Assembly (NCBI RefSeq): GCF_964199755.1
Contig: NC_133901.1
Coordinates: forward strand, 24,337,583 to 24,401,582
Direction of reading: 5' to 3'
Source: Larus michahellis
Taxonomy: Eukaryota; Chordata; Aves; Charadriiformes; Laridae
Length of the DNA: 64,000 nucleotides
Shown: positions 5,232-63,384 of the stretch, piece by piece
How the letters are laid out: every line of letters starts with the position of its first letter
Position numbering within the stretch: the first letter of the stretch is position 1
Notes under the pieces: generated by a model
What the model saw: only the letters and a program-made list of their open reading frames with translations
What the model was told of the DNA's origin: nothing
Databases searched by the model: none
Made by a program: the position numbers and the translations under genes

Positions 5232-5315
5232 CATAAAGGAGTGCCATGGGTTGCCTCTTATAAATGGACAGAATTGTGACCCTTATGCAACTGTCTCTCT
5301 TGTGGGGCCTTCCAG
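5232..5315 (+). CDS. RASA2: RASA2 coding exon, start of second C2 domain
   Basis: The acceptor is ttccttgtag and the donor is tccag|gtaacg. The exon encodes [13 protein letters not shown] followed by [13 protein letters not shown], the first C2B strands and the loop-1 Asp. It begins with the third base of a split codon and ends two bases into an Arg codon that the next exon completes. Confidence 0.92.
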
Positions 5316-20300: not shown

Positions 20301-23300
20301 GCCAGTACATCTAAAAGAAGGGTAAATACATCTTGAATCTAGATCATGCAAAAGAGTATTGACTTTACCGTTTTTCCATTAATGCCAACATCAGATTAAT
20401 GCTCATTAAAATGTTTGATGTACTGTAGAAATTACGGTATTTGTAATTTGTGGTAATTCTTTGTTAGTTTGCAGAATTAGTTTAAACCAACAGCTGTAAA
20501 CTTTCATAACTTATCTTTTAAATAATTAAAAAAAAAAATCAGCTTAAAACTTATTAAAAGCCCATCTGCGTTTCTGTTACAATTCAGTAACGTGTGCTTT
20601 GTGATGATTTATTCAGGATTGTCAGCTTGTATTTTAAAGGAATGTATTAATTTAATTTAGAATTACTTTGCATGCGGTTTAAGCACAGCCAGCTAAATGT
20701 TCTGCCTTAAAGTAGGGGGGAAAATTACCCTGTAATAAATGGTTTTAAAAGCTCTCCAGAAGACTAATGGTTGCATTTCATTGGATTCTGTCTTTACAGA
20801 GAAATGTACAAAAGAGCTCAGGGAAGGACTCGGATTGGTAAAAAGAATTTCAAGAAGCGGTGGTTCTGTCTAACAAGTAGAGAATTCACCTACCACAAAC
20901 AGCAAGGTAAATGATGTTTATTTTTCAATTATTTTTGTTTTCTCAATATTTTATAAGTGTTTGTATCTGATTTGTGCTTTTTAAAATGCATAAATTTTTT
21001 TCCTTTTACTAAAGTACATATGTCTTAGTTACCTTTGCGCTGGTTACAGAATGCTTCTATGATTCATGTACATTTTCTCAATAATAAAAAGGCACATTTT
21101 CAGAACTTAACCTACAGTATCAGTGCACTGAGGTTATAAACCAGTTTTCTTAAAAATCGCTTCACGCATCTATTTACAATTTTTCACAGATAAAGAACCA
21201 ATTTTCACTATTCCAATCAAAAACATCCTTGCAGTGGAGAAACTTGATGAGAGCTCCTTCAACAAGAAAAATGTGAGTCAAAAGATAGTTTATATGTAAT
21301 TCCTGGTGTGTTCTTTAAATAAAAGATTATAATTAGCTTACAGAGTTACTGAAACCCTATTACTGAACACTTCAGCAAAAAATCTTAGTTGGATCAATAA
21401 TAAAAATCTGTATGCAGCTTTTCCAAGTACTCTGAACGTGGAACCTAACTTGGAGATTTGGATCTCGGCACCAACTTTTCTGACTGATTTTATGACTTCT
21501 GCCCCCTTTTCCAAATTTCTGAAATGAAGGTTAGAACTACTGTGACCTTATTACAAAGCACTTTTCACGTAAGGTATTAGTAATATGTATTATATTATGT
21601 TCTACTAGAGATGTAATGTTATCAGACTTCTATTTATTCCGTTTGATGAGAACTTCCTACAGTACCTTCGTCAGCTGAGACAGTTGCCTGTGCTCACAGC
21701 CTCATTCTGCACCTCTAACACATCAGTATTTCTGTGTTATTTCCATTAGAAATTCTGAGGCAGTGATAAAAGTGCAACTGTTACTTAGGCTGAGGATGGC
21801 TAAAGGAGAGACTTCTAGGAATCTTCTGTTACTCACAGGATATCAAGCAGGAAGTCTGAGGTCACGTTTAAAGAGGCATGAATGCAGAGGACAGAGAATG
21901 CATCACATTCTAATTCTTTAAGAATTCTTTTTTGGATGAGGAAATGGTGGAGGTGGAATACAGGGAGCTGTTTTGTTTGTTGGTTTGTGGGATTTTTTTC
22001 TTTGAAATAGGGCTGTGTAGTAAAACGAAAGAGGTGAAGAGTCTTCTTTTCTCTCTTGTCACACTTTCTGTCTTAATTTGGCTTTGTTGAATTGCCTGAG
22101 CTTTGAAATCTATTTTGACGTATTCAAAGTTACTCTTTTACTGAGCAGAATGATGTTGTGTTCCTTCTACAGATGTTTCAAGTACTACATGGAGAAAAGC
22201 CGCTCTATATCCAAGCAAATAACTGTGTAGAAGCTAGTGAGTGGATAGAAGCTCTTTGCCGGGTAACGAGGTGCAACCAGAAGAGGCTCAATTTTTACCA
22301 TCCTTCTGCTTTTCTGAATGGGAACTGGCTTTGCTGCAAGGCTACAATAGAGAACACAGTGGGCTGTGCTCGTTGCACTGCGTAAGTTGCTTCTCAGCTG
22401 AAAATACATATGTGTTGTGGGACAAATAATGTATGAATCACTGTACAACTTGAAAATCTGAAAGCAAGGCTTTAGCAAGTTATGCTACTAAAAACATGCC
22501 TTACTAATAAGGCCTGAAGTACTGGATTTTACGAAGTCTATTACTTCGTCAGCTACCATATGAAATGAAGGTAACCAGTTCAGCATGTAAATCAGAAATA
22601 TTGAATGGTTCACTTCTTTCCACACAGAATAATAAATTTAATAGCTGAAGTTTATTCAGATGCCAAGCTGAATGCAGAAATGTGACACGCCTAGGTCATC
22701 TGTATGAAATAATTGGAATACCTTGCTGCAGAGGGCTCAGCCTGGAAGTCTTATCTCTTTCCCTAATGACATTGGCATTTTTTATACAGTCACTTTTTTA
22801 TTTCAACCTCACATATTTTATACAGTGTACTAAGAAAATCAACTAAATCTTGGATGTAGATTCTGACAAATGATTTGGATTTTATAGGTATGTTAGGAAA
22901 ACGAATAATGTCTTAGAATGCATTAGTGCCTTTCTTTAAGCTGCTGATTTCTGAGAACAAACAAATGCTTTGATCTTTTTGAAAAATAAATTTATCCTTA
23001 CCTGGATAGATTGCATAAATTACAGACTAAAGATCTCAGTCAGTTCTACATCATCAGGAAGTCCTACAAGATAACTTTCTGAAAATACGTATAATACTTC
23101 TTCCATGTTACTCAGTTCATTCCTATATTGGGTTTCTCAACAGTTCAGAAGATTCCCGTTACTGAATAACTTGGTTGGGTTTGTCTTTCTATTTTTTTCA
23201 ACTGTTCTGGTTTAGGAGATTGCCCTTCTCTTCTGGTTACCTTTCAAGAATAGAAGATTTTTAAATAAGTGTTTAAGTGTCATTTAATGACAATTAACCT

Positions 23301-25398
23301 TACTTTGATCTTTTTGAAATATTTTTCCTTGACATACTGAATAAATTGTATTGGAAAAAGCAGGTTTTTATATTGCTGTATTCATTGCCCTCAAAACTGT
23401 TTATGCCTGTTTCTATAGAGCACTTGCGTTGAACGCTAAGTTTTGTGGAGCAATTGTAAAGCCATCTGAGTGACGGACACGTTAAAAGGCTAAGTGTAGT
23501 GAAACAGAATCAGTTTTTACTTGCTTTCAAACCTTTCAAGAACAATTCCTATATTGACTACCCGTCTTTTTTCACCTTTTAGAGATGTTCCTGCTGATAC
23601 TCAAATTGAGATTGATGGAGACAGAGAGGCAGAAAGAATTTACTCACTTTTCACTATCAACATGCCTAAACTACAGAAGTTGGAAGGTACTCAAATAATA
23701 TTTCAGAAGAATTATACTGATATTATTTAGCTCTAATTCTTTAGGCCCATAACATCAGTTTGATGTCTTAACAATTTACCTGAAAATAATAGAAAGTAGA
23801 GAGACAGATTATATTTTTGTTGTCTTAGTGCTCTGGTATCACACATTCTTCAGTCATTTCTTTACAGTAGACATGAGGCGTGCACATTGTTCTAAATGAA
23901 TTTGCATATATGAAGTATCTTTAATAGGCTGAACAGAGAGACTGCAACTCTAGCCAGTTGTTCTTCTGTCTTTGCTCTCCTTTTCCTGACTATGGAGTGA
24001 GTTCTGTTGAACATGGTTGAGTTGCAAGAAAGCATTGGTCGTCTGTTAATGTCAACAGGAGAGAGCCAGATACTTGAGATGCTGAACACAACCAGCAGAG
24101 AATAAGCCACAGAACTGTAAATAAAGCTAGTTGGTGCTATCTCCTGCTTTTGTCTTAACCCACTTTATGTATAAGCTAGAGTAACTTTACACTTCAGAAT
24201 TTCAGAATCACCATTTACGTGATAGTTAGATCTGTTTGTTAATTGTCAAAATTCTAATCAGGATAATTGTGGTAATTTTTGTAGAGGCTTGCGGAAGTAT
24301 AGCAGTCTACCAAGGTCCGCGGAAAGAACCAGATGATTATTCAAACTTCACAATTGAAGATTCTGTAGCAACTTTTCATACACTTAAACAGATCATAGAT
24401 ATAGTAGAAAAGCTGAATGAATCGCATGAAAAATACCGAAAGAAGAGATCGTCTAGTGCTAAATATGGTAGTGAGTAAGTATCTTATGTAATTTTGACAT
24501 ACATAAATATGTATTTTCCTAAAAAAAAAAAAAAATAATCACAGAACAAGACCAGGCTTGTTTAGGTAGAGATAATTAAGCTAAAGGTAGATTTAAACAA
24601 AACAAAGAAATTGAGAAAATAAGGTACATAATTTGTGGTAATGCAGGTTTTTACCAGTTGTTAGAAGATCCTCTGGGGTGGGGTTCATCTGTCTTTCTGT
24701 TGAGATTCCCATAAGTGGGTGCAATGCCTCTGCTGTTTCCTTGCAAGTTAACATCTGAAGTGGACACAAAATTTATCCCTAACTGTCTGCCTACTTTCTA
24801 ATTTTTTTTTTTCAAATTCCATAGTTCAGTTAAGAAATAATTAAAATATCAAATTACATAAAACTGTAAAGATTACACTGCATGACTGTATCTTTCATGC
24901 ATTGTATTTACTGTTTATAATTCACTTGCCGTGCTCTATGGTAAATCCTGTTTCTGGTGAAGTTAAAAAAATCTTTTCTTTGGAGGACATTGTTGTTCCA
25001 AGGCAGATTCTTTCAGTTCTCCTCAATCCTGGCTGATATCTGTGGAATGCCACTGGCAAGTTTTATGATTTCTTCTTTGCGTCAATAAGGCTTGATTCAC
25101 CAGAAAAAAAGAATGCTCAAACCACGATTTGGTTTGCCTAGTTTAGTATTTGACCCAAGTCGTTTAGAAAAATTTACTTTGATTTAGAAAGTCTCACGTG
25201 AGAGTGTGTGAGGTTTTCTGCAAATCACAAAATTTCACAAGTAGTAGTAGAAATTATTAAAAAAAAATAAATACAGGTTTGCTGAATAAATTAAAATTGT
25301 ATGATGAGAACTAGAAAGCAGATGTTAACCTTAAAATATTTACATATAATATTTTATTTTTTTCCAGAGAAAATCCAATTGTTGGAAAAGTTTCCTAA
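5232..25398 (+). CDS. RASA2: RASA2, Ras p21 protein activator 2 (GAP1m), 3' 19 coding exons
   Basis: RASA2 speeds GTP hydrolysis by Ras at the plasma membrane and is recruited there through its PH domain. Coding exons are 5232-5315, 7125-7197, 8329-8405, 9780-9878, 11942-12098, 13308-13456, 14791-14905, 15481-15555, 16286-16409, 17758-17864, 19550-19636, 19718-19795, 20248-20321, 20800-20906, 21190-21272, 22173-22381, 23583-23686, 24285-24474 and 25368-25398. All have AG/GT borders, and the phases join into 673 codons plus stop. Domain order is second C2, RasGAP (arginine finger in FRGNS, FLRFF motif), PH, Btk-type H-C-C-C zinc motif, and a short tail ending in NPIVGKVS. From general knowledge the human protein is about 850 residues, so roughly 175 N-terminal residues (first C2 domain) lie upstream. 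The paralogue RASA3 is the main alternative. The RNF7-GRK7 neighbours and the tail sequence favour RASA2. Confidence 0.95.
7125..7197 (+). CDS. RASA2: RASA2 coding exon, C2B polybasic strand
   Basis: It encodes [20 protein letters not shown] and then FYFE, the lysine-rich C2 strand and the conserved NPQFNE turn. The acceptor is acag, after a weak pyrimidine tract; the donor is gag|gtaact. The first base completes the Arg codon of the preceding exon. Confidence 0.92.
8329..8405 (+). CDS. RASA2: RASA2 coding exon, C2B
   Basis: The acceptor is gcttccag and the donor is gtcag|gtaagt. It encodes [19 protein letters not shown] and then IEKLEV, continuing C2B. It starts in phase 0 and ends two bases into an Arg codon. 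Confidence 0.93.
9780..9878 (+). CDS. RASA2: RASA2 coding exon, end of C2B
   Basis: The acceptor is ttattttcag and the donor is catg|gtgaga. It encodes VDLWNNGNL, then [21 protein letters not shown] and a split Trp codon. The third calcium loop reads D-L-W where Ca-binding C2 domains have D-x-D. Confidence 0.93.
11942..12098 (+). CDS. RASA2: RASA2 coding exon, C2B to RasGAP linker
   Basis: The acceptor is ttgctttcag and the donor is gttcag|gtattt. It encodes [20 protein letters not shown], then [18 protein letters not shown] and the helix ending LLLKSPDVQ. It completes the last C2 strand and leads into the GAP domain. Confidence 0.94.
12121..12155. repeat. 13-bp tandem repeat, about 2.7 copies
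   Basis: The unit tttaaaatgaaaa occurs twice and then partly again, just inside the intron 23 bp after the RASA2 exon that ends at 12098. Confidence 0.8.
13308..13456 (+). CDS. RASA2: RASA2 coding exon, RasGAP N-terminal helices
   Basis: The acceptor is tttctcacag and the donor is cgca|gtatgt. It encodes [20 protein letters not shown] and then [20 protein letters not shown], the helical entry to the RasGAP fold. It ends two bases into a Gln codon. Confidence 0.94.
14791..14905 (+). CDS. RASA2: RASA2 coding exon with the RasGAP arginine finger
   Basis: The acceptor is ttttcttacag and the donor is gatgag|gtaggt. It encodes [15 protein letters not shown], then [20 protein letters not shown]. 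The Arg of FRGNS (codon 14810-14812) corresponds to the catalytic arginine finger inserted into the Ras active site. Confidence 0.95.
15232..15377 (+). repeat. Direct duplication, copy 1 (contains G17)
   Basis: This 146-bp segment begins gaatctgctgattccgg and ends gacaattttttgga. It recurs at 15665-15803 in the same orientation. The two differ by three substitutions and by poly(G) length, 17 here against 10 there. It lies upstream of the 75-nt RASA2 exon. Confidence 0.95.
15481..15555 (+). CDS. RASA2: RASA2 coding exon, 25 codons, flanked by a direct duplication
   Basis: The acceptor is gtttctttcag and the donor is aatatg|gtgagt. It encodes [20 protein letters not shown] and then VEINM. At 75 nt with phase 0 on both sides it could be skipped in frame. 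Near-identical 140-bp repeats lie on either side of it. Confidence 0.94.
15665..15803 (+). repeat. Direct duplication, copy 2 (contains G10)
   Basis: This 139-bp segment matches 15232-15377 except for three substitutions and seven fewer G residues in the poly(G) tract. It lies 109 bp downstream of the RASA2 exon at 15481-15555. The 287 bp between the copies is single-copy. Confidence 0.95.
16286..16409 (+). CDS. RASA2: RASA2 coding exon, RasGAP core
   Basis: The acceptor is cataattgcag and the donor is ttccaa|gtaagt. It encodes [15 protein letters not shown], then [20 protein letters not shown]. The last base opens an Asn codon that the next exon completes. Confidence 0.94.
17758..17864 (+). 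CDS. RASA2: RASA2 coding exon with the FLR motif
   Basis: The acceptor is tttctctgcag and the donor is catcca|gtaagt. It encodes [12 protein letters not shown], then [13 protein letters not shown] and [15 protein letters not shown] followed by the VVSP turn is the signature of the Ras-binding groove of RasGAP domains. Confidence 0.95.
18379..18750 (+). mobile_element. CR1 LINE, 3' end fragment in a RASA2 intron
   Basis: The segment matches the 3' end of avian CR1: it starts at ttcagtttggagaagag, passes through the conserved ggaacaggttgcccagagaa block, and ends with the gatgatctttaaggtccctt block and the terminal attctgtgattctatgat repeat. It is 5'-truncated to about 370 bp, has no intact frame, and lies in the sense orientation relative to RASA2. 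Confidence 0.95.
19550..19636 (+). CDS. RASA2: RASA2 coding exon, RasGAP C-terminal helix
   Basis: The acceptor is tttattttag and the donor is aaactt|gtaagg. The exon is 87 nt, phase 0 on both sides, and encodes [20 protein letters not shown], then WGSLTKSKL. Confidence 0.93.
19718..19795 (+). CDS. RASA2: RASA2 coding exon, end of RasGAP domain
   Basis: The acceptor is tttcttgcag and the donor is aaaaag|gtacct. The exon is 78 nt, phase 0 on both sides, and encodes [20 protein letters not shown], then TESVKK. Only 81 bp of intron separates it from the preceding exon. Confidence 0.93.
20248..20321 (+). CDS. RASA2: RASA2 coding exon, GAP-PH linker
   Basis: The acceptor is tttttccttaag and the donor is gaagg|gtaaat. 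It encodes [20 protein letters not shown] and then HLKEG, a polar Ser/Glu linker into the first PH strand. Confidence 0.92.
20800..20906 (+). CDS. RASA2: RASA2 coding exon, PH domain start
   Basis: The acceptor is gtctttacag and the donor is agcaag|gtaaat. It encodes [20 protein letters not shown], then [15 protein letters not shown]. The basic loop and the KRWF strand are the phosphoinositide-binding part of the PH fold. Confidence 0.95.
21190..21272 (+). CDS. RASA2: RASA2 coding exon, PH domain middle
   Basis: The acceptor is ttttcacag and the donor is aaaaat|gtgagt. It encodes [20 protein letters not shown], then SSFNKKN, the central PH strands. Confidence 0.93.
22173..22381 (+). CDS. RASA2: RASA2 coding exon, PH C-terminal helix and Btk zinc motif
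   Basis: The acceptor is ccttctacag and the donor is actgc|gtaagt. It encodes [31 protein letters not shown] (the PH capping helix with its invariant Trp) and then [15 protein letters not shown] and GCARC. The His and three Cys that bind zinc in Btk motifs are all present. Confidence 0.95.
23583..23686 (+). CDS. RASA2: RASA2 coding exon, post-Btk segment
   Basis: The acceptor is ttcaccttttag and the donor is tggaag|gtactc. It encodes [20 protein letters not shown] and then [14 protein letters not shown]. It follows the zinc motif directly and ends one base into a Glu codon. Confidence 0.94.
24285..24474 (+). CDS. RASA2: RASA2 coding exon, C-terminal tail
   Basis: The acceptor is aatttttgtag and the donor is agtga|gtaagt. 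It encodes [20 protein letters not shown], then [20 protein letters not shown] and [14 protein letters not shown], a charged helical tail. Confidence 0.94.
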
Positions 25399-27780
25399 CC
25401 AAAACAAACTGTGGCACACTTGGATGAAAAAAGAAACTGGAAATGTTCTTGAGTGTTTTGGGGTTTTTGTTTTGTTTTTGTTTTTTTAAATTCATTATGT
25501 GCATTTTTACAAAGTATTTAAGAATGAACATAAATGCTAGTTGTGTTGACAATCTATTTAATATTTAATAGAAAAATATCTACTTGGAAATCTGGTCTTA
25601 AGGTTTATTCTCATTTTGCTGAAGAACTTGAAGTTCCGAGTTCTTGAAGTAATAGGTGTGAATGAATCTAAATGTTGTTTTGCTATTGTTGTCTTATTAG
25701 AGAGAACTTTCGAAACAAATAAGCTTTTTAATGGAAGAAAATCCACACAGCATTTGTTGGTTGGATTACATCTCTCAATACAAACACTGCAAACTTGCAT
25801 GAGTTTACCATGAGTGCCTGCCCTGCTGATATGGATCTTGAAATAGAAATCCCAAGATACTATGACATGGAAAAGATCTGAAGCTTCATGCCCAATTCAT
25901 TTGACTTTTTTTCTTGTATTAGGTGTTGTCAGGACTTGATTTCTCTACAGCTGAAGTCTTACAAAAATCTTGCAGTGTGCTGCAGATAATCTGGACAGCA
26001 GATACCAGTGTTAGTTATGTTTTTAAATACTAAAGAAGAAATCAGGGAACTTATGTTGTACCTCTTGTTTACATTTGGGGTGAGTAATATATGGAATGAC
26101 ATTAGACCACTATCTATATTTTCTTTAGGATTTTTTAAGGTACATATTTTTTCTTAATCTAAAAAGAAATGCAGGGTAGCAACATTCGTTTTAAATGAAG
26201 TTTGCCTACAGATAGTAAAATTTAAATGTGAATAGATTGTGGTTAAGTACTGATAAATTTACATCATCCCATGTATGATTTTATTTCTTTTTTTTTTATA
26301 AAAAGTAATAACTAGGTCCAGCTTACCTTTTGACTACAAATCTAATAAATAATCTCTATTATAATCACTCAAAGCACTTTAGATATCTGGACTATCCCAG
26401 ATTATTTTTAGATACTTTGTAGTATCTGCTTGTTATGATCAGTTGAATGATCAACATTGTTTTGTCTTTAAGCAATGCTTCAGTGAATATTTTTATATCT
26501 TTAGTTATATGGATTTGTATTTGCCACTTAACACAATCTTAAACTGGCGTTTTGACTTTAGTAAAATTAATTTTTGCTCACTTCATCTGAGAAGTTAGGT
26601 TTATGCTGAAAGAACATATATGTATATAACCAGGAAGAAGCAAAGGTATTACTGTGGCAACTTTGCTTCATCAGTATTAAATATAATGGTACTCCTTGAA
26701 ATATTATTTTTAATAATAACTTTATGTGGTACTTTTATTTTTGGAGCATTTGCTACGGAGTCTTTTGTTGTTGTTTTGTTGGGTGATTTTGGGGTGTTTT
26801 TACAATCATGATTTGGCCAAATTAACTAGGAATGTAACTTACAAATAGAATAGAAATCCACAATGCTTGAAACAGTAAGCTGTTTAAATTACTATACATT
26901 TATTATACTGTTGTAGGGAGGCTTTCTGTAATAGAAGCAAGTTGGCAAGACAGGATTGAAATCTTTTGGAACGAATGTTAGAATATGTTGTTAGAATAAC
27001 TATTTGATTTAATACCAGACAAACTGTTTTAGAATATCCAGGATTCAGTACTAGTCTCTGCAATGTCACAATCATTCTATCACCTCAGCTGTTTTTGCCT
27101 TTTCCTTTTTTACACATTTGATGTATTCTAAGGGATTTTTATTTGCCAACAATTGAAATGGGGGGGAGGGGAGAATATAGTAATGCCAAGAAATGTCTTT
27201 TGCCAAGGTAGAGTCTGATTAATTGCCATGAATAAAAAGCTGCCATTAAACAAAGTTGAATGTGGTCGAGTGTCAAAGTTAGGTTTTGCTATATGTGGAT
27301 TAACCCTGTGGCAAAGTGTCTGTTCCTTGGAGCCATTTTCTGTTGTTTTAAAAGTCAAATATATGAAAAATTAAGTTGTATACTCTTACAACATTTTTTT
27401 AAAATATGCACTTTTTTTTGCTTTGGTACTGGAATATCTAGGAAAAAAACAAAGACCATTGAATATTTGTGACCGTTAAGATTTGATTTCTCATTTTATA
27501 ATGTTTTAAAATGCAGTAGACGTTCTAGAATTTAATTAGGTACAAGTAGGATGATTAATAACAAAAGTTGCCTTCATTTTGATTAGTCTAGAAAGATGAT
27601 GTTATTCAGTAATTAGTTCTGTTAGGATTGTAAATTATCATTAGTTTTAATTTGTATTATGATGATGTATTGTTGAATGTATTTTTATTTAAATTTTATT
27701 TTCTTATCAAGACATTAAAATGTTTTGTAACATTGCTTGAGAATAACTCACAAATAAATTACAACTTAAGATACACTGTG
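25368..27780 (+). CDS. RASA2: RASA2 last exon: 10 codons, stop and 3' UTR
   Basis: The acceptor is atttttttccag. Codons give ENPIVGKVS and a TAA stop at 25396-25398. The rest is AT-rich 3' UTR. An AATAAA at 27753-27758 is followed by a T/G-rich stretch near 27777, a normal cleavage context. An earlier AATAAA at 26344 could give a shorter form. The UTR end is inferred. Confidence 0.85.
27753..27758 (+). terminator. RASA2: RASA2 poly(A) signal
   Basis: This is an AATAAA hexamer 2.35 kb after the RASA2 stop, with a GT-rich element (ctgtgtgtttattgtg) about 20 nt downstream. Confidence 0.6.
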
Positions 27781-30270
27781 TGTTTATTGTGAGGCCTGGC
27801 TCCTTAAAATGTTAGCATTTATCTGAAGACTGAATTAATAGAGTTTTACATACAGGAGTTGTGTATAAATAGATAAATATAGTTGGCAAGAAAAAAAAAC
27901 AACAGAATGAAGTTAGAGGGATCTTGCATGGTCATCTACAGCGTTGTTACATTTTAACTAAGATTGATGGTTGGAGAGAGAGAGAAGTGATTGTTAATCA
28001 TTTGGCATAACAGCGTGCGTAGAAGCCTTGGTAATTTGACAGTTTTTAAAATGTTTGGAATGACTAGTCTGATGTATTGAAGGATATCCGGCACTATGTT
28101 ACTAGTGTTATATATGGCTAATATTTTTTCTTGCTTACTGATTTGTCTTTCATTACCTGTCCTGTGTACCATTACCAGCTATATAATTTTTCAGACCTTT
28201 TAAAATATATTGCATATGGAAAAATAATCTTCCCTTTTCTCAGTCGTCTTCCTTTATTTAATCTGGGCACTTTTTTGCCACCATCTCTCCCCTCCTATGC
28301 TTATGGGCATTTTTATGAGATAATTTTGTACACGTGTGTTTTAATGTCTTGAGATGTTTTGTTTCCTTGTACAGAGAGCTGACCTGTTCTTTATTGCTGG
28401 TATGGAGGCTGCTATTAGGAGTTACAGTGCAAACCTTCCAGTCATTTTGGAATTAATTTTGATTAATTCTGAGGTAAGCTGTAGTAAGGCCCAGTCTCAG
28501 TGGTCACTACATTCACTTGCAGAGATCAGAAAGCAGAGGAAGTTAAAGATTAAATTGGAAGTACAGGATGAAATTTTTTTCTGTGGACATTAAAAAAAAT
28601 CTGTGGTTATTAAAGCAGAGTGATCTGTTCTTTTCACTGCTAATATGCTGCCTTCTCTATCAGCTCCATTAAGCTGAGTTTTCTCTACACCATAACATGA
28701 GAAGGGTATTCCCATTTAAGATCTGTGGCTTCTGAGCTGATTGTCCTTTCAGGTTGTGGGCCAGGCTAGCAATTATAGGTGCATAAGGCCTCTGTAGCTA
28801 GAAAGTTCTTCCTAGGACTCTGGATTCCTTGAAAATCAATGTGCTAGTTTCTCACACAGTTCTATACATCTTTGTCCCCCACCATACATGCAAGTGACTA
28901 TAGTGAGAAAATGCATACTTACAGCCTATACGTAGGTGAGCATATGTATTTATCTTCATATAGTCTCCCTATAGACTATGTACGGTGAACAGAATTAATA
29001 ATATCTAGAAAATTAAGTGTTTAAAATACATTATCTTTAATTCCTGCTCATTTGTATGTATTTTAATATACAAAGTTTGCAACATCAACTCACATGTGAT
29101 AAGGACTGATTCAGTATTGCATTTAAAAGAGCATGCATATGGAATAAAAATTAGCCCAATAAGCAACAGCTCCCAGTAACAAAAAGAACAACTTCCAGTA
29201 GAATGGGCAAATACATACAATTTACGTAAGGTTAACAAATAGTTAAAGAAGCATATTTAATATTTATAGGATTTATGCAGATTAAATAAACCAGAAATCA
29301 TTTAATAGCAGTAAGGAGACTGTAACAGTGTTACTGTGTTCAGCTGTGATGAGACTGCTGCTGGATTACTTTGTCTCTTCCTGAGATTAAAGAATATAGG
29401 CAGCTGTTTAAAAAAAAAATAAAAAAAATTCAGGTTTTGAGAGTAGAGCTATAAGAACTGGAAATATAGACTGTAATTTAGCTAAATTACTTAGTTTTAA
29501 AATGTAAGTTTAAAAAGTCACTTTATGACCTAAATCAGGGATAGAAATTTGATAATCAGTTGCTCCACAATCCCAATAAGGTTTAAAAAGATCAAGTGGT
29601 TGCAGTGTTCAGGAAATGCATGTGCTTTGTAAGAATGTTTTGTTTGTTTTTTTTTTTTAAGGAAAAAAAATATTAGACAACCTTACTGAATTACTTTTAA
29701 AATATTTTTTACATTAAGAAATGTTTATGGGAAATAACAGAATCCATCCATATATAAATTTTAATACGATGTTTCATAGAATTTTATGACTAAGCTTTTT
29801 AACTGTTTGAGGTAATAATTATTTTAGCATAACTACTATTGCAAATGCTGTGGCAGTTTCATATAAAGTCTAGTTAACAGTTTTACTGTTCACTGAAGAG
29901 GATATAAATTTTTATTCTTATCTTAGAAACATTAATTAATGTTTTTTTTAAATCCGGTCAGACAATTTAGTTTGCTTTAAGGGACTGTGATTTTGTTCCC
30001 CACTTTAATCCTCTATTTTTGGTCATTCTTCCTACACAAGGAAAAAGAACTGAGAGAATCATAGAACAGCCAAAGTAAATCTACTGTGTGACTTGAACTC
30101 AAGACTTAAAGGTAAAAATCTCTTACCTGGTTCCTCTGAAATAGTAGTGTAGAAGATTTTGGCTCTGGTTTCCTAAGAAATGCAAGATATCCCCTGCTTT
30201 GCTCCAGGTTGGTGTTTCAGTGACACACTCCACTGTCAGGGAGCAGGGAGAGAAGATGATGTTTGAGGGA
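27781..30270. other. RASA2-RNF7 intergenic, first part
   Basis: AT-rich sequence with no recognised gene. The only exon-like object is 28375-28473, described separately. Other open frames lack splice signals or family resemblance. Confidence 0.6.
28375..28473 (+). other. Exon-like open segment of unknown gene
   Basis: A 99-nt stretch open in phase 0 lies between a good acceptor (tttccttgtacag) and a good donor (gag|gtaagc). It would encode 33 residues including FFIAGMEAAIRSY and LPVILELIL. It lies beyond the RASA2 poly(A) signal. I recognise no family and cannot link it to another exon, so a chance open segment is quite possible. Confidence 0.25.
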
Positions 30271-30278
30271 TGTGTGTG

Positions 30279-30287
30279 TATATATAA
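30279..30287 (+). promoter_or_regulatory. TATA-like element of the small gene candidate
   Basis: tatatataa lies just before a locally CpG-enriched stretch (about 30305-30480) with at least eleven CpG dinucleotides in otherwise CpG-poor DNA. This would place transcription start near 30310, about 150 nt before the candidate ATG at 30463. Confidence 0.35.
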
Positions 30288-30462
30288 CAGAAAGCTTAAA
30301 AGCTAGCCCGACTGCTGGTCCCGCAGTGTTTTCCTGCCGGCTCAGCGTGCGGACACCGTACCTACTGAAGGATTACTTCAGCGGCCGGAGAAGAAGCTCA
30401 GGGGTGGGAGCTCCAGGGGTTTAACACCGCCTGCTCAGCATTTGCTTCTCCCAGACACTGCG

Positions 30463-31045
30463 ATGTCGTTGCTAGGTGATAGAGAAACAAGCCTTCATCA
30501 GATGGCAAAAAGCAGTCGACAGAGGTAAAATTAACAAGAGGGGAAACTCCCCTATAAAAAGTGATCCACAATAGCGCTCGGATGTGACATTTATGTTGCA
30601 TCTTTTATCCCTAGACCTTTAGAGTACCTGATGAAAGAAGGGCAAGTATATGCAATTCGCTCTCTCCTTTCCACGCTGGGGGATGTCAAGGTGCTATGTA
30701 TTGTGTAGCAATGGAAATTTAAACACCCGAGAGGAAGGAGTACTTCCCTGTAGCTTCTGTAACTAAGAAGTATTTAAATGATGCCAGAAGCTGTCAAAAT
30801 GCTTTGTCAAATATTTGGGCATTTTAATCATCTCGAGTCGTGAACTGACACCCCAGAGGGTGACAGTGTAAGCTGAGAGGTTTGTACAAGCGTTTTCTCC
30901 GTATGATAATGATGCAGTATAGCTCATCATTTACCTTGCAACTTGTATTTAGTCCTGTACCTTTCCTTCTCTCACCTTTTCTCCTTATTTTGCTGATTTA
31001 CCCTAGTATAAATTAGACCAAACACGATGCAGATTATCTGATTGA
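30463..31045 (+). CDS. Unrecognised small spliced gene candidate, 58 aa in three exons
   Basis: I do not recognise this protein. Exon 1 is 30463-30524 (ATG in CpG-enriched DNA, donor cagag|gtaaaa). Exon 2 is 30615-30690 (acceptor tcttttatccctag). Exon 3 is 31007-31045 (strong pyrimidine tract, acceptor gatttaccctag, TGA stop). The exon 1-2 phase joins exactly and gives SSRQ-R-PLEYLMKEGQVYAI and then RSLLSTLGDVK; exon 3 adds YKLDQTRCRLSD. An AATAAA follows 60 nt after the stop. The weak point is the exon 2 donor, aag|gtgcta. If it is not used, the frame closes at 30708 and gives 51 residues. The product would be soluble, basic and partly helical, with no signal peptide or membrane segment. Function unknown. 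Confidence 0.45.
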
Positions 31046-31104
31046 TTTTGCAAGAATCTTAAAATTGAGACAGAAATAATCCTAGTCCTAGGTAGGAGAT
31101 TTTA

Positions 31105-31110
31105 AATAAA
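31105..31110 (+). terminator. Poly(A) signal of the small gene candidate
   Basis: AATAAA lies 60 nt after the proposed TGA at 31043-31045 and before the CR1 copy that starts near 31.6 kb. Confidence 0.35.
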
Positions 31111-31599
31111 GCATTAAGCTGTATAAATGGAACAATACAAGCATGAGTTCCAGTACTGCTGGAAAAACTCCATGAAAGATCTAACTTTTTTGAATGCAAA
31201 ACATACAATGATTTCTGTAACAACCAAAATAATTCACCTAGCTTCCTCCTGAGTAGTTGATTCAGATTCTTGACGAGTCTTTCCTGTCACACCATTCTGT
31301 CATTGTTTTGGTTTGGGTTTTTTAAAATTATTTATGTATATACTTGAATTGTATATACATACATCTTGGCCAAAATCTCAAAGTAGAAAGTTGGGTTAAA
31401 GTCAAAAAAATCTGTTGAGTGACATGGTACACAGGACATAATGTCTGCAAGTGTGAATGATGAGAGGATAAACTTCACTTACGCAGTACCTTCCAGTAAT
31501 TTAAGCACATGAGTAAAGGGAGTTTCCATAAGACAAGTTTCTGTGCAACTTCCCTTCCTTTTTTGTTTGGTTTGGTTTTTGTTTTGTTGGGGTTTTTTG
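31111..31599. other. Non-coding spacer
   Basis: AT-rich spacer between the small gene candidate and the CR1 element, with T/G-rich low-complexity sequence at its right end. Nothing recognisable. Confidence 0.6.
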
Positions 31600-32794
31600 G
31601 ATTGGAGGGCAGGATGCGGGGAAGGCTGTGCACGTTGTCTATCTGGACTTTGGTAAGGCCTTTGACACCGTCCCCCACAGCACTCTCCTGGAGAAGCTGG
31701 CGAATCATGGCATAGACAAGCGTACTCTTCGCTGGGTTAAAAACTGGCTGGCTGGCCGTGCCCAGAGAGTTGTGATTAATGGGGTGAAATCCTCTTGGCA
31801 GCCAGTCACCAGTGGTGTCCCTCAGGGCTCAGTTTTGGGGCCAGTTTTGTTTAATATCTTTATCAATGATCTGGATGAGGGGATTGAGTGCACCCTCAGT
31901 AAGTTTGCAGACGACACCAAACTAGGTGGGAGTGTTGATCTGCTTGAGGGTAGGAAGGCTCTACAGAGGGACCTGGACAGGCTGGATCAATGGGCCAAGG
32001 CCAGCTGTATGAAGTTTAATAAGGCCAAGGGCCGGGTCCTGCATTTCGGTCACAACAACCCCAAGCAACGCTACAGGCTTGGGGAAGAGTGGCTGGAAAT
32101 CTGCCCGGCAGAAAAGGACCTGGGGGTGCTGGTGGACGGCCAGCTTAACATGAGCCAGTAGTGTGCCCAGGTGGCCAAGAAGGCCAACAGCATTCTGGCT
32201 TATATGAGGAATAGCATGGCCAGCAGGAGTAGGGAAGTGATGGTGCCTCTGTACTCGGCACTGGTGAGGCCTCACCTCGAGTACTGTGTTCAGTTCTGGG
32301 CCCCTCTGTATAAGAGGGACATTGAAGTGCTGGAGCGTGTCCAGAGGAGAGCTACCAGGCCGGTGAGGGGTCTGGAGACCAGGTCATATGAGGAGAGGCT
32401 GAGGGAGCTGGGCATGTTTAGCTTGGAGAAGAGGAGGCTGAGGGGAGACCTCATTGCCCTCTACAGCTACCTGAAAGGAGGTTGTAGAGAGGTGGGTGTT
32501 GGCCTCTTCTCCCAGGTGAATAATGACAGGACCAGAGGAAATGGTCTGAAGTTGCAGCAGGGGAGGTTTAGGTTAGATATTAGGAGGAATTACTTTACTG
32601 AAAGGGTGGTCAGGCACTGGAACGGCCTGCCCAGGGAGGTGGGTGAGTCACCATCCCTAGAGGTGTTTAAGAAACGTGTAGATTTGGCACTTCAGGGCAT
32701 GCTCTAATGACAGAGATTGTAGGGGGGATTTTTTTGGTGTATGGTTGGACTCGATGATCTCAAAGGTCCTTTCCAACCATGAAGATTCTATGAT
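31600..32794 (+). mobile_element. CR1 LINE, 5'-truncated, reverse transcriptase frame broken once
   Basis: About 1.2 kb of the 3' part of a CR1 retrotransposon. One frame (31625-32707) encodes the second half of the reverse transcriptase: [40 protein letters not shown] and the FADDTKLGG catalytic motif, then the C-terminal region ([17 protein letters not shown]). The frame is interrupted only by a TAG at 32159-32161, where a Gln codon is expected. The 3' end carries the usual gatgatctcaaaggtccttt block and attctatgattt. Endonuclease and early reverse transcriptase are missing, so it cannot move by itself. Confidence 0.95.
31625..32707 (+). pseudogene. CR1 ORF2 reverse transcriptase fragment with one internal stop
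   Basis: The codon frame is continuous from the LDFGKAFDT region to the natural TAA at 32705-32707 apart from the single TAG at 32159. The FADD catalytic aspartates are intact. It lacks the endonuclease, the amino-terminal half of the reverse transcriptase and any promoter, so it is a dead fragment. Confidence 0.9.
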
Positions 32795-35700
32795 TTGCTA
32801 ACAGTAGCTTATGAGGTCTATCCCGATACTAGGCATATTCCAAGTATCAGTGAGAGGGTAAAAATATTAAGTCAAACTGCATTACCTCACACAAATTTAA
32901 AGGAGATGTCAATATTTCAAAATCAGTAAGGGGCGTGCCTCCTCGTAACAGCAAAACAACATAACTTGGTTTTCAGTTTTCAGTTCAGAATGCAGTTCCA
33001 TTCTCAAACAGCTAACCTCAGTTAAAACATGCAAAAATTTTATCTTCACAGTTAATTTTTTAAAAATTAATAAATGGAATATGAGACTAGCTTCTGACTT
33101 GAAAATCCGCACTGTCCAGGGGAATAGTAATAGCTGAGGTTTACTTCAGAGTAAAACAATTAGCAAACAAGAATCTAGTGTAGAATTTGATGAAGTAGTC
33201 TGGGGTCTTTATGTCATTGGCTTTAAATCTCTGTCTTAGAAGGGGAGATGGATGAGCCTGGGTGTGGTATGAAGAATGGAGAAGTTTCAAGGCTTTAGAC
33301 TTAATTAAAACAGCTCAGCAAAGTCAGTAGATATTTAGTCTCTTGTAGACAGGGTTTTCCCATTAAAGCAGAAAGGTTCCCATGCAGAAGTAATTAACTC
33401 TTTCTGTAAAACTTCTTTAAGAATTTCTCTTCTATCTATTAGGTGTCGTGTTGTCCATTTGTTTCACTTATTGAGTAATGCACAGTGCATTTAAGAATCT
33501 GAATTACTGGTACTTCTCTGTCTTTGAACTCATTCCTGGATTTCTATAAAGCTTATGCCAAATTGCATCACGTATACAGCAATACAGGGAAAATGGTGGG
33601 GACAGACTTTTTTAAACTCCATTTGCTACTCTGGGTAGAAATATATTTCTGGGACTTCTTCTATCTCCCTTCCAGTGAGATCCTCCCAGTGTAAAAGTGA
33701 TATGCAGTTTATTCCACAAACACAGTATGTTTCCCAAATTTCTGTTTTGGTTTATTTTTCATTTCTGGATGCCCACATCATGCTTCTCTTTCACAGAAAC
33801 TGTACATATTTTTATGTTATACAGTTTATAATCAATTACATTTCAATTAAATTTCTGCAATAATTCCACAGTGAGGATGCAGTGTAATTCATCAATTCTG
33901 GATGAATTCTGGATTCTGACTTGTCTCCATGTCAAATAATACTCATTCAAATCTCCAAATGTTCAATGTATGCATATTTTCAAGTCTATTTTCCATTTTG
34001 GCAACTGCATTGGGCATCTTCAGTAAAACCTTAAGAACAACTGACTACAGGCAACAGCTAGTGTGCTGATACAGTGCTATTTCCTCTATCGCAGCCCCAC
34101 CGCCTGCCCTCAGCGAGGTCTCGGCTGTAGCCACAACAGGGTTATTAGTACAGGCCATTAATAGCACTGTTTAGCATATTCCTATTGGAAAAACAGCACA
34201 GAGAGCCATAGGTGATCTAGAGTTTAAGGAATAGTTTTGGCACAGAACTATGCTTCAATTATTTTCCTTGGCAGATAAATTGATGCAGTACTTAAGTGTT
34301 CTGATATATGTTAGTCTATTGACAGAACAAACAGTATGTGTAATACTACAATCCAGCACGTGCATTAGTTGGCCAAGATACACAAATCCTTACATAACTG
34401 TTCTTTGCATTATCATAAAACTGACATTTCCATAACAGTTTTGTTATTAGTAAAAATAATCTTCGATTCTATGTTTCAGAGTAAGCAAGCTGTGGAAAAA
34501 ACAACAAAAAAAAAAATCTCAAAAAGTTGTAAGAGCAAAGAAGAAAGAAAAAAAGAACAAAACTCAGGTCTCCATTCTCAAAAGATTCATGAAAATCTAT
34601 GAAAGGCCTTGAACATGCTTCCAGCCACTGTCTGTGCAATACTCAGAGTTTAAAAAGGTTCATAGTATATGAAAATGTTCCTGCAAGGTAAAGATGCATC
34701 TGTATATTCATTTGATATGGGATTAGGAGTGTGAAAATAGAACTGTGTTATGGCAGGTGTAAGTTGCGTGTCAAACACTTGGAGCTTTCAATGAGTATTA
34801 TTTGACATTGAGACAGTCATCATCCAGATTGGTCCTTGATGAATTACACTGCTTCCTTACTGTGAAACTATTGCAGAAATTTAATTGATTATAAATTGTA
34901 TCATATAAAACAATATTCTAAATTTGGGTACCTACTATTATGTACATGCCCATCCACAGTTGCCAAACAGGTTGGGTTTTGCCATTCTGTAGCACGGAGT
35001 TGGCTCAGCAGCTGTAATTCTAGCTGAGCCATCACTCGATGGGCTAAAAAGGACTTAGTTCAAGTTCCTATATTTAGACACTTGCTTTGGAACATTGTCA
35101 GTAAAGTCTGAATGAGATATGCAAATGCAGTCTTCCCCTGCCCAATCTGAAATAATGAGTTTTTATTTACAGTTGAAAACAGCGACAAAGTACATCAGGA
35201 AAACCCACTGAAAGACCTATCACATTTTGTTCCACTGTCCCACATGCGACATCTTTAATGTCATGTGTGTCTGTAGGGAACAGATGAGTTCTAGGGTGCC
35301 AGGACAGTAGTTCTCCAAAACGGCTTGAAATTTTTTTATACAGTTCTTCAGGTGGTAAAATAATCAAGAAAACACTATTAGTTGTGAAATGATTATTTTA
35401 TTTCTGTAAAGCAATATGGACAGAGTTAAAGGTACCTGTATCAAATTTGCTCTACAATTTTCACTGCTAATGTAAGTTCTGGCACTGCACAGTAAAAATG
35501 CAAGTTTTATTTTTAAGAGGGAGCTGACACGCATTTAAGATCTTGCTTCCAGCAGCAATGGAAGTGTGATTGTCTGGAATCATCTCGCTTCGCAAACTGA
35601 TGCTCAAAGTTCAGCCCAACCACCAAAACCAACGTGGACACGTTGAGATTTCTGCAGGGGGGTCAGAGACTTGATAAATTGCAATGAACTAATGGGAAAT

Positions 35701-36590
35701 GAAAGGGGTGTGATGGTGTGGGTGTGTGTGCACATGTGTACAAGGCTCAGATCCAGGGCTAGACAAGAAATTTGCCTGTAGTTTTTCGCTTTGTGGATAA
35801 GGTAAGGTGACATGCTGTGGGCTGTGCACATCTGTACTGTCTTGTTGATCCTCCCTGTTGAAGCCGTGTGATGGGGTATGTTCATGTTTCGGGGCACATG
35901 GCCATAGAAATGTTCTAGACTACATACAAAAATAAGTGCTGCCCATGAATCTAAAGCCGCTGAGAAAATGGTTAGTGTTGGGCACAGTCGGTACTCTGAA
36001 GGTGGTCAATCTGTTTGGCAATCGGACAGGAGAACTTCGGTGCAGGTGAAAGAAATATTGGTAGGTTTTGAGAAAAGGCAAAGAAAGGTGGACTGTTTCT
36101 AACTCTAGCTCTCACAACTTCCATGAATTTCTTTGTCCTAACTTTAAATAGAACATTGTATCTTTATAGTTTAATTTGTACATGGATATAAACATTGTTT
36201 AACAAACTTACCTTAAAGTAGTCTTAAAGAGACAGGGCACTATGTTGGAAAAGTCAATTTTGTGTACTTTTATTTGGGTAAAGATTAGGGAAGAAATCCA
36301 AGTTTCTATTATCTTTTAAAATAAGTATGTGCATTGTTTAGCTTTGTTCTTATCCACACTTTGAAGCTCCAGTTTTTAAGACCTATGTGGTTGTATACGT
36401 AAATGCTTTTATTTTTGAATGTAACCAGACACTTTAAAATTCCCTCTTAGCTTTTTAGTTCCCTCGTGCTTCACAACTCTTACACCTATTTTCCGCTGAT
36501 TTTTTTTTTTTTTTTTTTTTTTTGTCCTTTATCAAATTCAAGCTGAGTCCAAGTCTATAGTCTGAATTTCGCTCTCTAGAAACCGTAGAC
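32795..36590. other. RASA2-RNF7 intergenic, second part
   Basis: AT-rich spacer. I see no gene I can support. A T24 run lies at 36500-36523. A possible minus-strand terminal exon near 35.17-35.48 kb and an A-rich exon-like block near 34.5 kb were considered, and neither is convincing. Confidence 0.55.
36500..36523. repeat. Poly(T) tract, 24 nt, upstream of RNF7
   Basis: An uninterrupted run of T lies 186 bp before the RNF7 start codon and 70-80 bp before the CpG-rich block. Confidence 0.9.
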
Positions 36591-37330
36591 TTCGAGCAGG
36601 TATTTGGGATCTCACGCCGCCCCCGCCCCCCGGGTTGCGCCCCCCGCCGCCGCCGCTGGGGGGCGCTGCCGGCCCGCGCTACCGGCGGCGCGTCCCCGCC
36701 CCTGCGCCATGGCCGATGTGGAGGACGGGGAGGAGGCGGGCGCCCCCCACTCGCACCCGGGCTCGGCGGGATCTAAGGCGGGCGGCCCCGACAAGATGTT
36801 CTCGCTGAAGAAGTGGAACGCGGTGGCCATGTGGAGCTGGGACGTGGAGTGCGACACCTGCGCCATTTGCCGGGTGCAGGTCATGGGTAAGCGCCGGACA
36901 AGGCAGGCCCCGGCCGCCATGGCCGCCGCCGCGGGCCGCAGGGCCGCCCTGCCCGCCGCCCTGCCTTCCCCTCCCCGCGCACTGCGGGCGGAGGAGCGAG
37001 AGGCGGTTTCCGGCAGAAGGGGGGCGCTGCCCCCTCCGCGCCTCCTCTTCCTCCTCCTGAGGAAGCGAGGAGGGCCCTGCGGCCCGCGGCACCCCGAGTG
37101 CAGGCCCTGCCCTCGCCTCAGCTCGGGGGCCCGGGCAGCCCGCCCTCCCGCCGGGGGAGGCCGCGCCGGTCAGCGGCCCTCCCCGGGCGGGCCCAGCCGG
37201 TGCTCGGGCCCGGAGGCGGGCGGGCGGCGCCGGCCTCCGCGAAGGCGCCTTTTTCGTGGAGCCCGTTTGGTGCCTGCTGGCAAGCTCCGCCAGCGCCGGG
37301 GTACGGCCGGGCTGGCCAAAGTGTGTGGTG
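36590..37330 (+). promoter_or_regulatory. RNF7: CpG island, RNF7 promoter and first exon
   Basis: Base composition switches abruptly from AT-rich to very GC- and CpG-rich, with GC-box-like cccgcccccc near 36620. The block covers the 5' UTR, coding exon 1 and the start of intron 1, as expected for a housekeeping promoter. No TATA box is evident. Long open frames here on both strands come from base composition. Confidence 0.85.
36709..36886 (+). CDS. RNF7: RNF7 coding exon 1
   Basis: It runs from ATG to donor catgg|gtaagc and encodes the acidic Gly/Ser-rich N-terminus, the cullin-binding strand and the first RING cysteines up to CRVQVM. It ends one base into an Asp codon. Confidence 0.97.
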
Positions 37331-40300
37331 CTGCTGTGTGCGGGTTGTTCCTGAAGAAACAGTTGTAGATGTTCATATAAACTCATATTTGAAATCCGCT
37401 AATCAGAGTCTCTGACACTTCTACCCAAGCTTCTTAATTACTCGTGAAGTTTAACACATGTGAATGCACCAAAAAAAATCTATCGAAATGTAAGGGGTCA
37501 GTTTACCCGGTTTTGGAATCTGGAGAATCTCTTTGAAAGCAGCCTCATCGTTGACTGGCATTACTGTTTTCTGACATCTTTTACAAATACAATATTTGTT
37601 TTGGGTCTTTGAAAATCCTTTAAATTCTTCTTCTACTGTATCTCTAGATCCTGTTTTTATTATTGTGCCGAGTCATCCTAGGCATAACGGTCCCCTCAGT
37701 TGGGCTTGGTACAGTCTGGCATGACAAATGACCCAGGATTCCATCCAGAGCACGTTTGTTTTGTAGGTCCAGGAAGCATCTGGTTTGGGCTTAACAGAAA
37801 TGAGGCAAAATACGTAATGCCATCATTTCTCATACGTGTGTTTACTGAGAACGCTCTGTGGAAAAGGCAAAAAGGTGTACTAGAGGGGGAAAAAAGATGC
37901 AGCCCAGACTGAAACGGTGGGAGATACATCTTTTGCATAAGCATCTTATGAAGATTGTCTGCTTTTATATGGTGAATAGAGACCCTGGAAATATGAAATT
38001 GGCTTCATCTGCCATGTAAACCTTGATTTTAAAAATGTATTTCCCTGTTTTAGCTAGCCTGTTACAGGGCACTATAAAAAAAATCTTAAATGAAAAAAAT
38101 CTTACCCAGAGCTTTTATAAAACTTTAAAAAAAAAAAAAGTTAATTTATAATTTTTCATAAGTAGACCAAGGGAGTACTTTTTATCTGAAACTATCAGAA
38201 AAATCTGGTAACTATTTTTTTGAGAACAAACCACATTGTTAAAACGTGAAACTTGATCGTTACTGACTTCAGTTTAGCAATTTCATGTTGACGCTGCCAG
38301 ACCCCGTCTGGCTCCTGTAGAGCCACTGCGTCTGCAGTAACCTTAGTTGGAGGCAGTGCCAGACTTAAGCTGGCACTTGTTGAAAGTTTGTTTGATTTTT
38401 TGCAAGGGAAGAAGGTGTTAGCTGCCTTAATTTTCTACTGTTTTAACTCCTTGGACCAACTATTGTAACTCTTTGGACCACAGAAGCACGAGGGAAGGAA
38501 GCAAAAACGCAGGGGTTAGGTGGGAAGGGCAGGATTGCAGCAGTACTGACTTAGATTTGCTTAACGTTTCAGACTGACACCCTTAGGATTGTGAAGCAGG
38601 AGTGGGGACAGTTTAACTTGGTATAGTTGCAGTCATTTCTGTCCTCAGAAATGCTTTTTCTCTGTCTGAAACTGCAAGTCTGGAGCTAGGATAGGAAGGC
38701 TGCTTTTTCAGTGACTACTGGTCTGCCACAGCGTGCTGCCCTGCATATTGTGGTGGCCCCAGATCAGTTTGCTTTGATGTAGCAGGATACAAGTTGAAGC
38801 AGTTTGCCTGAACCTTCCCTGCAGCTTGGCCCTTGAATGCTGTGGAAATATACATTATAGGAACAGACAGAGAACCGGAAACTATTTACTGTCTTACTTT
38901 TGTTTCAGTGAGGAAAGGGCAACTGTTTCAGAGTTCCATTACCTTTTCTTTGGAGGAGTTGAAGATGTGTTTGCTCCCATAATATTGAACACTTTCTGTT
39001 GTGCGTGGTACGTGCACAAATGTCTACGGCAGCCCATGTCAGGGCAAAGGATAAACAAAGGCATTTTTCCACTGTATGTATGTGGCACAGTACTAAGCCT
39101 GGAAGTTGTCTCTTCTCTGTCTTATTAAGTCCTGAACCTGCCATCCAGTCCTATGGCCACAGACTGGAGTGCATAAAGATGATTTGCATGTACATGTGAC
39201 TCTTGTGACAATTACATGCAGGTACTTATTAAGGAAAACTGCTATATAAAAAGTAGAAGGAGGTGGAGGTTGTGGTGAGAGATGCACGGCCTAAAAAAAT
39301 CAAAATTGTGAATGATTTCCTTAAAAGGAGATGCTGACATCTGAAAAACAAAGTCCTGTAATTAGGGTTTGGCTTTGTGCTTGCTCTGGTCTTAATATGC
39401 CTGAGTGCCTTGGCACAAATCTGCTGGTTATATGTACAAAATGGAGAAGGCTTTTTTTGAGCAGAAGTTATGAAAATACCAAAGCAATGGAAAATAAACA
39501 AAACTTGTTGGATAGTTCAGTCCTTCTGATCTCTTTCAGATATATATTTCATTGTCATGTGCACTGTTTTAAAATTTAGAAGGGGGTTATTTAATATTAA
39601 AGGGCTGAACGAGACATCAAAACATGGGATTTTTACCTTTATAAATTGGCTTTAGAGTTTATATTTTCCTCTGACAAACCTATTCTTATGATGGAATCCT
39701 GAGAATCAAATTGAGTCTTGTTCTTGTTTACTTTTAGATGCCTGTCTTAGATGTCAAGCTGAAAACAAACAAGAAGATTGTGTTGGTATGTAGTGATATC
39801 ATTCGCTTGTTTTTCAATTGAAGCTTCTCTCAGTAGGGTGCATTTTAAAGTTTGAAGGGAGTAGTGATTTTATTAATGCGCAAAAGTAAACTGGTGTTCC
39901 TTTCTACATTGTGTCATCTTTTTACATTAGTAATACTTTATGCTTTATTTTTGAGCACTAATAAAATTAGTTTTGACTTTAGACATGCTGTAGGACAAAA
40001 TAGCTTCAAATTTGCAGTCAACACATACGCAACTGAGAGGTTTAAGTTTCTCTCACCCTGAGCGTAACTGAGGAGATGATAATGTACCCTTTTGAAGTGG
40101 GTAGGAAAAGGTTACCTTTTTTTTTTTTCTGAGATGCATGCCAGAAGACACAGTGGTAATACCATAAAAAGTTCAGAAATAAATGCGTGTCTGGGTTAGA
40201 AAGTGGTATTTTTCCCAGTCTTAACTCAGACATAGCAGAGGCAATTGCTTGTTTGTTTACTTTTTATTTGAAAAAGTGGAATCACTTGAGTTTGCTATAG

Positions 40301-41348
40301 TGCTCTTTAAACAGAAACATACTTTCAGTTGCATACCAATGTATGCAAAAGCAAATCTTAACTTAATTCTCATATATTTAAATCAAAAATAATGAAAATT
40401 GTCTCAAAGCGTTTGCTTTAAACCTTTAAGTCAACTTTTAAACCAGTGGTAAACTTTTTCATGCCCTGGTTCTTTCTGATTTGAAGTATGTTGTCTCAAA
40501 CTTAATCCACTGTTGTTTTTGACGATTGTTTTAATGAGAACAGGAATTTCCTGTTCCAGATATCTTAACTGGCTTGCTAAGTGTCATCATTTGCAACACT
40601 TTTGATTGGTACGCTTGTATTCTAATAGGGAAAATGTGAACTAATAAGGGAAAAAAGCAAAGTAACCAATACTATTCAGGAGTAGGTGGACAACAGACAG
40701 CACTTTTTGTTGTGTTGAAACAATTGTAGCCTATAGACTTAGACCTGTGTCCCGGTCTAAGATCCTGTTCTGAGGCTATGTACTGTATCAAATGGGCCTC
40801 CTTTGATTATCACACATTTAAGTTTAAACACTGCATTTCACGTGACAATTTGCTGATATGCTCTTGCGTGATAGTCAGTCAGTATATTTTGGTATATTTT
40901 GGTACTGGGGAAGATAAATTGAATAACTTAGGTGGTTGCACTTATTTCTTGGACAGAACTGATAAATGTGTTTATACATTCACAAAACTGTGTCACTTTA
41001 TACGAGAAGGTGAGAATACGTGTGTTTCTTTTTTTGTAATTGTAAATAAGTAAAGGATTGATGAGAAAGACTATAATAATCCAATCTAAATGGATAAATA
41101 TGTGATTACCCATTTTGTCTCTAAAGCTTGCGGTGGTTATAAACATCTGAGAATGATGGTTTGGACCATGCTGTAGGTGTTGATTGGACAGCTGAGGGTG
41201 ACTGGAACATGTTCTTTCTTCTCTTTCAGTGGTTTGGGGAGAATGCAATCATTCCTTCCACAATTGCTGCATGTCCTTGTGGGTGAAACAGAATAATCGC
41301 TGTCCCCTCTGCCAGCAGGACTGGGTAGTCCAGCGAATAGGCAAATGA
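36709..41348 (+). CDS. RNF7: RNF7 (SAG/ROC2/RBX2), RING subunit of cullin-RING ligases
   Basis: Small RING-H2 protein that binds cullins, chiefly CUL5, and recruits the E2 for ubiquitin or NEDD8 transfer. It acts in nucleus and cytoplasm. Coding exons are 36709-36886, 39738-39785 and 41230-41348, joining to 114 residues; the human protein has 113 from general knowledge. The start is ATG in gcgccATGG, a strong context, giving [11 protein letters not shown]. The cullin-binding strand [18 protein letters not shown] is followed by the zinc ligands: [28 protein letters not shown] and CPLCQQDW, ending VVQRIGK. All ligands are present. The extra residue falls in the low-complexity N-terminal segment, the part that normally varies. 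It lies between RASA2 and GRK7 on the same strand, as in mammals. Confidence 0.98.
36887..41229 (+). other. RNF7: RNF7 introns 1 and 2
   Basis: Intron 1 (36887-39737) starts in the CpG island and becomes AT-rich. Intron 2 (39786-41229) is AT-rich throughout. I see no further exon, mobile element or RNA gene in either. Confidence 0.65.
39738..39785 (+). CDS. RNF7: RNF7 coding exon 2 (48 nt)
   Basis: The acceptor is gtttacttttag and the donor is tgttg|gtatgt. It encodes [15 protein letters not shown], the loop carrying the additional zinc ligands. It has one split codon at each end. Confidence 0.96.
41230..41348 (+). CDS. RNF7: RNF7 coding exon 3
   Basis: The acceptor is cttctctttcag. It encodes [20 protein letters not shown], then [18 protein letters not shown] and TGA at 41346-41348: the second half of the RING-H2 domain and the natural C-terminus. 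Confidence 0.97.
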
Positions 41349-45429: not shown

Positions 45430-45541
45430 AGGCCACCACACACCACTCGCAGGGCGAAGTGCAGGGCAGCTACAGCACAGCACTTGGGCCAGTTACTCAT
45501 TTTGTCTCAACGAGGCTCTGCCACCCCAAGAGCTTGCCAGG
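45430..45541 (+). other. GRK7: GRK7 5' UTR, possible internal splice acceptor
   Basis: gtgtttttcag at 45419-45429 is a good acceptor 112 bp before the ATG, suggesting that a non-coding first exon may lie upstream. The frame stays open through this segment, but no in-frame ATG precedes 45542. Confidence 0.4.

Positions 45542-63384
<17,843 letters not shown>

Follow-up and report, generated by a model that had tools for sequence, protein, structure and literature searches.

The 12 kb that separate RASA2 and RNF7 in Larus michahellis raise the question of whether a small gene lies between these two neighbours, as proposed in an earlier note that described a short spliced frame with promoter-like elements upstream of it, or whether the same signals have another origin. 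Coordinates are those of the window, which is the whole 64,000-nucleotide stretch of DNA that was analysed (Table 1). The candidate stretch is intergenic, beginning 5.8 kb downstream of the final RASA2 coding match and ending 5.6 kb upstream of the RNF7 start codon, and all of the sequence elements listed for it are present at or beside the positions recorded, with correct coordinates. As these elements exist, and the locus is intergenic with a small CpG island at its beginning, it is possible that a small gene has gone undescribed here, though the gene claim is unproven and the reading that we favour is a CpG-rich regulatory element.

The surroundings of the candidate are otherwise those of known genes and repeats. 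The GRK-type gene beyond RNF7, including its additional kinase piece, is presumably GRK7. The reverse transcriptase of the LINE remnant that follows the candidate matches RVT_1 in Pfam (E 5.9e-23), and we take this element to be of the CR1 type. A search of all six frames of 28000-36700 against Pfam at E up to 1 returned nothing but this reverse transcriptase, and a larger gene with exons in 31100-36600 was set aside, the LINE supplying the only Pfam domains there. A second reverse-transcriptase remnant lies on the + strand at 56146-56617, spread over two frames (RVT_1, with the second piece below the Pfam cut-off). In addition, a short stretch with CpG was sighted by eye at 34088-34130, 3' of a pyrimidine run that ends in AG.

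Table 1 Genes, repeats, CpG-enriched stretches and elements of the candidate spliced frame in the window.
Feature	Position	Strand	Remarks
RASA2 coding matches	5233 to 24475	+	query: human RASA2 sequence
Wider CpG-enriched stretch	30101..31100	.	600-base tiles: up to 20 CpG, observed/expected up to 0.60
Small CpG island, promoter-like or regulatory	30231..30580	.	200-base tiles, GC at least 0.5, observed/expected at least 0.6
TATA-like run TATATATAAC, weak	30279..30288	+	inside TG/TA-rich run
Candidate exon 1, coding part	30463..30524	+	62 nt; ATG at 30463
GTTGCTAGG, like half of an RFX X-box	30468..30476	+	one exact match in window
Candidate intron 1	30525..30614	+	90 nt, gt...ag; donor +1.5, acceptor +3.5
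Candidate exon 2 of three-exon model	30615..30690	+	donor at 30691, -0.8
Alternative terminal exon 2, coding part	30615..30708	+	stop TAG 30706-30708; 51 aa; sole two-exon frame found in region on + strand
Candidate exon 3, coding part and TGA	31007..31045	+	coding to 31042, TGA 31043-31045; acceptor +1.0
AATAAA, possible poly(A) signal for both models	31105..31110	+	chance rate 1.0 per kb
LINE remnant	31532-32790	+	downstream of candidate; reverse-transcriptase frames 31532-32161, 32162-32707
RNF7 exons	36709-36885, about 39738-39784, 41229-41345		query: human RNF7
GRK-type gene, RGS and protein-kinase domains	about 45707-46057 and 46934-47377 (span 45707-47377)	+	
GRK-type gene, additional kinase piece	about 63107-63391	+	

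The local CpG enrichment that had been reported for the candidate is readily seen. Under a CpG-island rule (200 bases, GC at least 0.5, observed/expected at least 0.6), 13 tiles of 200 bases, placed at 10-base steps within 30000-31200, qualified and together make up the small island, and the 64-kb window contains just one other such cluster, the RNF7 island at 36461-37460. The latter is far denser, its 600-base tiles reaching 77 CpG and an observed/expected ratio of 1.05. Over 600 bases GC at the candidate is at most 0.47, and 30301-30900 holds 20 CpG (observed/expected 0.60) against the 9.6 expected from the window-wide rate, with a P of 0.002 that applies to a single stretch and is uncorrected for about 100 independent stretches. 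Elsewhere, in the 595 of 634 overlapping 600-base tiles that are clear of the candidate stretch and of 36101-38000, the ratio is at most 0.54 and the count at most 13. The excess is independent of any reading frame, and the CpG element is probably more than chance. As a promoter island would be expected to do, its small island takes in exon 1 and part of the intron along with the supposed promoter.

The TATA-like element of the gene model is there, but it is weak in its TG/TA-rich surroundings, and of 40-base stretches sampled, 5.6% contain TATAWA. The start codon has G at -3, and the intron joins its two exons in phase just as claimed, with the third exon, the stop and the AATAAA following; spliced together, the three exons encode the 58-aa product described, MSLLGDRETSLHQMAKSSRQRPLEYLMKEGQVYAIRSLLSTLGDVKYKLDQTRCRLSD. 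The AATAAA begins 60 nt past the stop, yet 8.6% of sampled positions show AATAAA within the following 100 nt.

Splice sites were scored with a set of weights and compared with 20 automatically placed exon ends of RASA2 and RNF7, several of which are surely misplaced. Both sites of intron 1 lie inside the score range of these partly misplaced ends (9 of the 20 controls lower for the donor and 8 for the acceptor), while for both the exon 2 donor and the exon 3 acceptor 5 of the 20 are lower. The weakness of the exon 2 donor had already been conceded, and AAG/GTGCTA indeed scores -0.8. The three-exon form is less likely because it requires this poor donor; the two-exon form is preferable because it needs one intron rather than two, and it can use the AATAAA at 31105 within its terminal exon. 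If the stretch is transcribed, the two-exon, 51-aa form would therefore fit better than the three-exon form.

An open frame whose exons join in phase across gt...ag introns, as looked for in a microprotein gene, is present, but shuffled sequence produces such frames as well. Among 300 dinucleotide shuffles of the stretch, read on one strand and with cut-offs set at the candidate's own values, which favours the candidate, 7 contained a two-exon frame 51 aa or more in length, and 2 contained a three-exon frame that was 58 aa or longer and had AATAAA after it. The three-exon structure was absent from all 96 real tiles, a set that includes 42000-54000 and hence GRK-type exons, as do the 161 stretches of the ankyrin comparison below and the CpG, AATAAA and TATAWA rates. 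Two-exon frames turned up in 3 of 54 real tiles from 24600-36500 (two being the candidate itself and the other lying within the LINE) and in 7 of 104 from 41500-63900, where GRK-type exons and a LINE remnant are among the sequences covered. Taken per stretch and strand, with about 154 stretch-strands in the window, the shuffle counts imply that one to four such frames would be expected by chance in a two-strand search of the 64 kb, that is 3 to 4 with two exons and about 1 with three. The spliced frame therefore stands only weakly beyond chance, and a chance assembly, for which the earlier note had allowed, lies within what such a search would yield.

Codon usage was compared with a model trained on 667 codons from RASA2 and RNF7 and applied to the 46 codons common to both forms of the candidate. 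The candidate frame scored 0.078, against 0.060 and 0.157 for the other frames of the joined DNA, and its score was equalled or exceeded by 112 of the 601 stop-free stretches matched for GC and by 114 of the 2004 that were unmatched, stretches which overlap and hence are non-independent; against a background that contained GRK-type exons the proportions were 26% and 11%. Usage is unremarkable and a clear coding signal is lacking, and because just 46 codons were available the comparison speaks neither for nor against coding.

The statement that the product belongs to no known family agrees with searches of Pfam (at E up to 10) and NCBIfam, neither of which gave a match. Searches of prokaryote genomes and viral contigs yielded no relative, an absence that is uninformative because an RNF7 exon 1 control also went without a match in the viral contigs. 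Peptide strings from the product did not occur in the literature searched. Exon 2 does resemble an ankyrin helix pair, although it is extremely improbable that the candidate derives from an ankyrin-repeat gene as its remnant. In PDB, with E-values up to 10 admitted, the 58-aa query matched two chains and a 46-aa query three, all of which we take, from their pattern, to be ankyrin-repeat proteins, one alone being named ankyrin. Three shuffles found no match in PDB and the reversed sequence found eight, none ankyrin by name. The best E-value (6.2e-5) is a sum across three near-identical repeats in a designed protein, and single-repeat values are 28 or worse. When the 46-aa form was shuffled, 13 of 5000 sequences scored as high against an ankyrin consensus, and none of 161 stretches of 46 aa tiled across the window did so, but a six-frame scan placed two other sites in the window at an equal or higher score, and neighbouring frames carry no ankyrin domain. 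Because of these two sites the likeness is not special within the window, and with the single-repeat E-values and the missing Pfam ankyrin match it does not indicate an ankyrin-repeat protein; this reading was dropped.

Other classes of element were likewise considered. GTTGCTAGG, found just inside the frame, resembles one half of an X-box, but at least one copy occurred in 30 of 100 shuffles, and 30468 was not among the places listed for the full-length X-box pattern at up to 3 mismatches. An RFX/X-box promoter, and hence a ciliary gene, was set aside, the match being a 9-base half site at chance level; a ciliary role is unsupported because the half site is so common in shuffles and the full motif was not listed for this place. 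A solo LTR or repeat copy was also rejected. The 1500 bases searched for TG...CA with a target duplication held one five-base and no six-base case, where tiles averaged 5.8 and 2, and the candidate has no second copy within the window, its best match elsewhere having E 0.24. A structured RNA was rejected too, as no Rfam family reached its gathering score.

The CpG excess, the position and the absence of any clear coding signal are observed, and they suggest, with a probability of about 0.5, that this part of the interval from RASA2 to RNF7 is a small CpG-rich regulatory element, promoter- or enhancer-like, which perhaps yields a short non-coding transcript and in which the frame is incidental; its regulatory activity and transcription are what we infer. 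Transcription factors binding the stretch would leave it partly unmethylated in the germ line, and this partial lack of methylation would preserve its CpGs. The element may act in cis on RNF7 or another neighbour, and a short non-coding transcript, if made, might run from about 30310 to about 31125, the 51- or 58-residue frame within it being incidental. Consistent with such an element are its place as one of just two island clusters, the other being the promoter island of RNF7, together with the 20 CpG per 600 bases (P 0.002, for a single stretch), the codon score equalled by nearly a fifth of GC-matched stretches, and the absence of a window copy, an LTR-like signature, an Rfam match or any Pfam match besides the LINE. 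By analogy only, a putative enhancer region has been placed in the corresponding human interval, at 3q23, where the variants discussed in PMC6704092 fall downstream of RASA2 and upstream of RNF7, although this region need not be the same place. Less easily accommodated is that the island sits exactly where the promoter of the candidate frame would be, and that, given the island, such a frame is an event of about 2% on one strand (0.7% for three exons); without GC matching, moreover, only 114 of 2004 stretches reach its codon score.

A rival account is a real but undescribed microprotein gene, in which the small CpG island is the promoter of a short, spliced mRNA. The simplest such mRNA would have two exons (about 30310-30524 and 30615 to about 31125; 51 aa), or else it would have three (58 aa). 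The island spanning promoter and exon 1, the G at -3, the acceptable in-phase intron sites, the AATAAA downstream and the rarity of the three-exon structure (2 of 300 shuffles, none of 96 tiles) argue for this account, which is nevertheless unlikely given the poor second donor, the lack of a family, the GC-matched codon result and the higher score of another frame (0.157 versus 0.078). The turkey gene table in PMC8470100 also has GRK7 adjoining RASA2 with no named gene in between, though RNF7 is missing as well and the table is thus incomplete. The fuller claim, of a bird gene without a named family that lies between RASA2 and RNF7, has a small CpG island of its own as promoter and encodes a protein of 51 or 58 residues, is unlikely. 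Still less do we favour chance, in which the intergenic stretch is ordinary apart from being somewhat CpG-richer and its gene-like signals were assembled through searching many frames. The numbers expected from shuffles and the two-exon frames in real tiles are in keeping with such an origin, but the CpG excess, which is frame-independent, nonetheless coincides with the frame.

Should the regulatory element be all that is present, the locus would be ordinary, whereas a coding frame would add another small gene overlooked by annotation. With regard to known systems, the putative 3q23 enhancer region (PMC6704092) and the candidate lie in intervals that are alike by gene order, though the two need not be the same place. 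The candidate also resembles the small coding genes recovered from whole-genome PhyloCSF (PMC6886504) in being a small frame outside annotated genes. However, those genes rest on multi-species codon evidence, for which chicken PhyloCSF tracks exist (PMC6886504), whereas the candidate is known from the sequence of a single genome.
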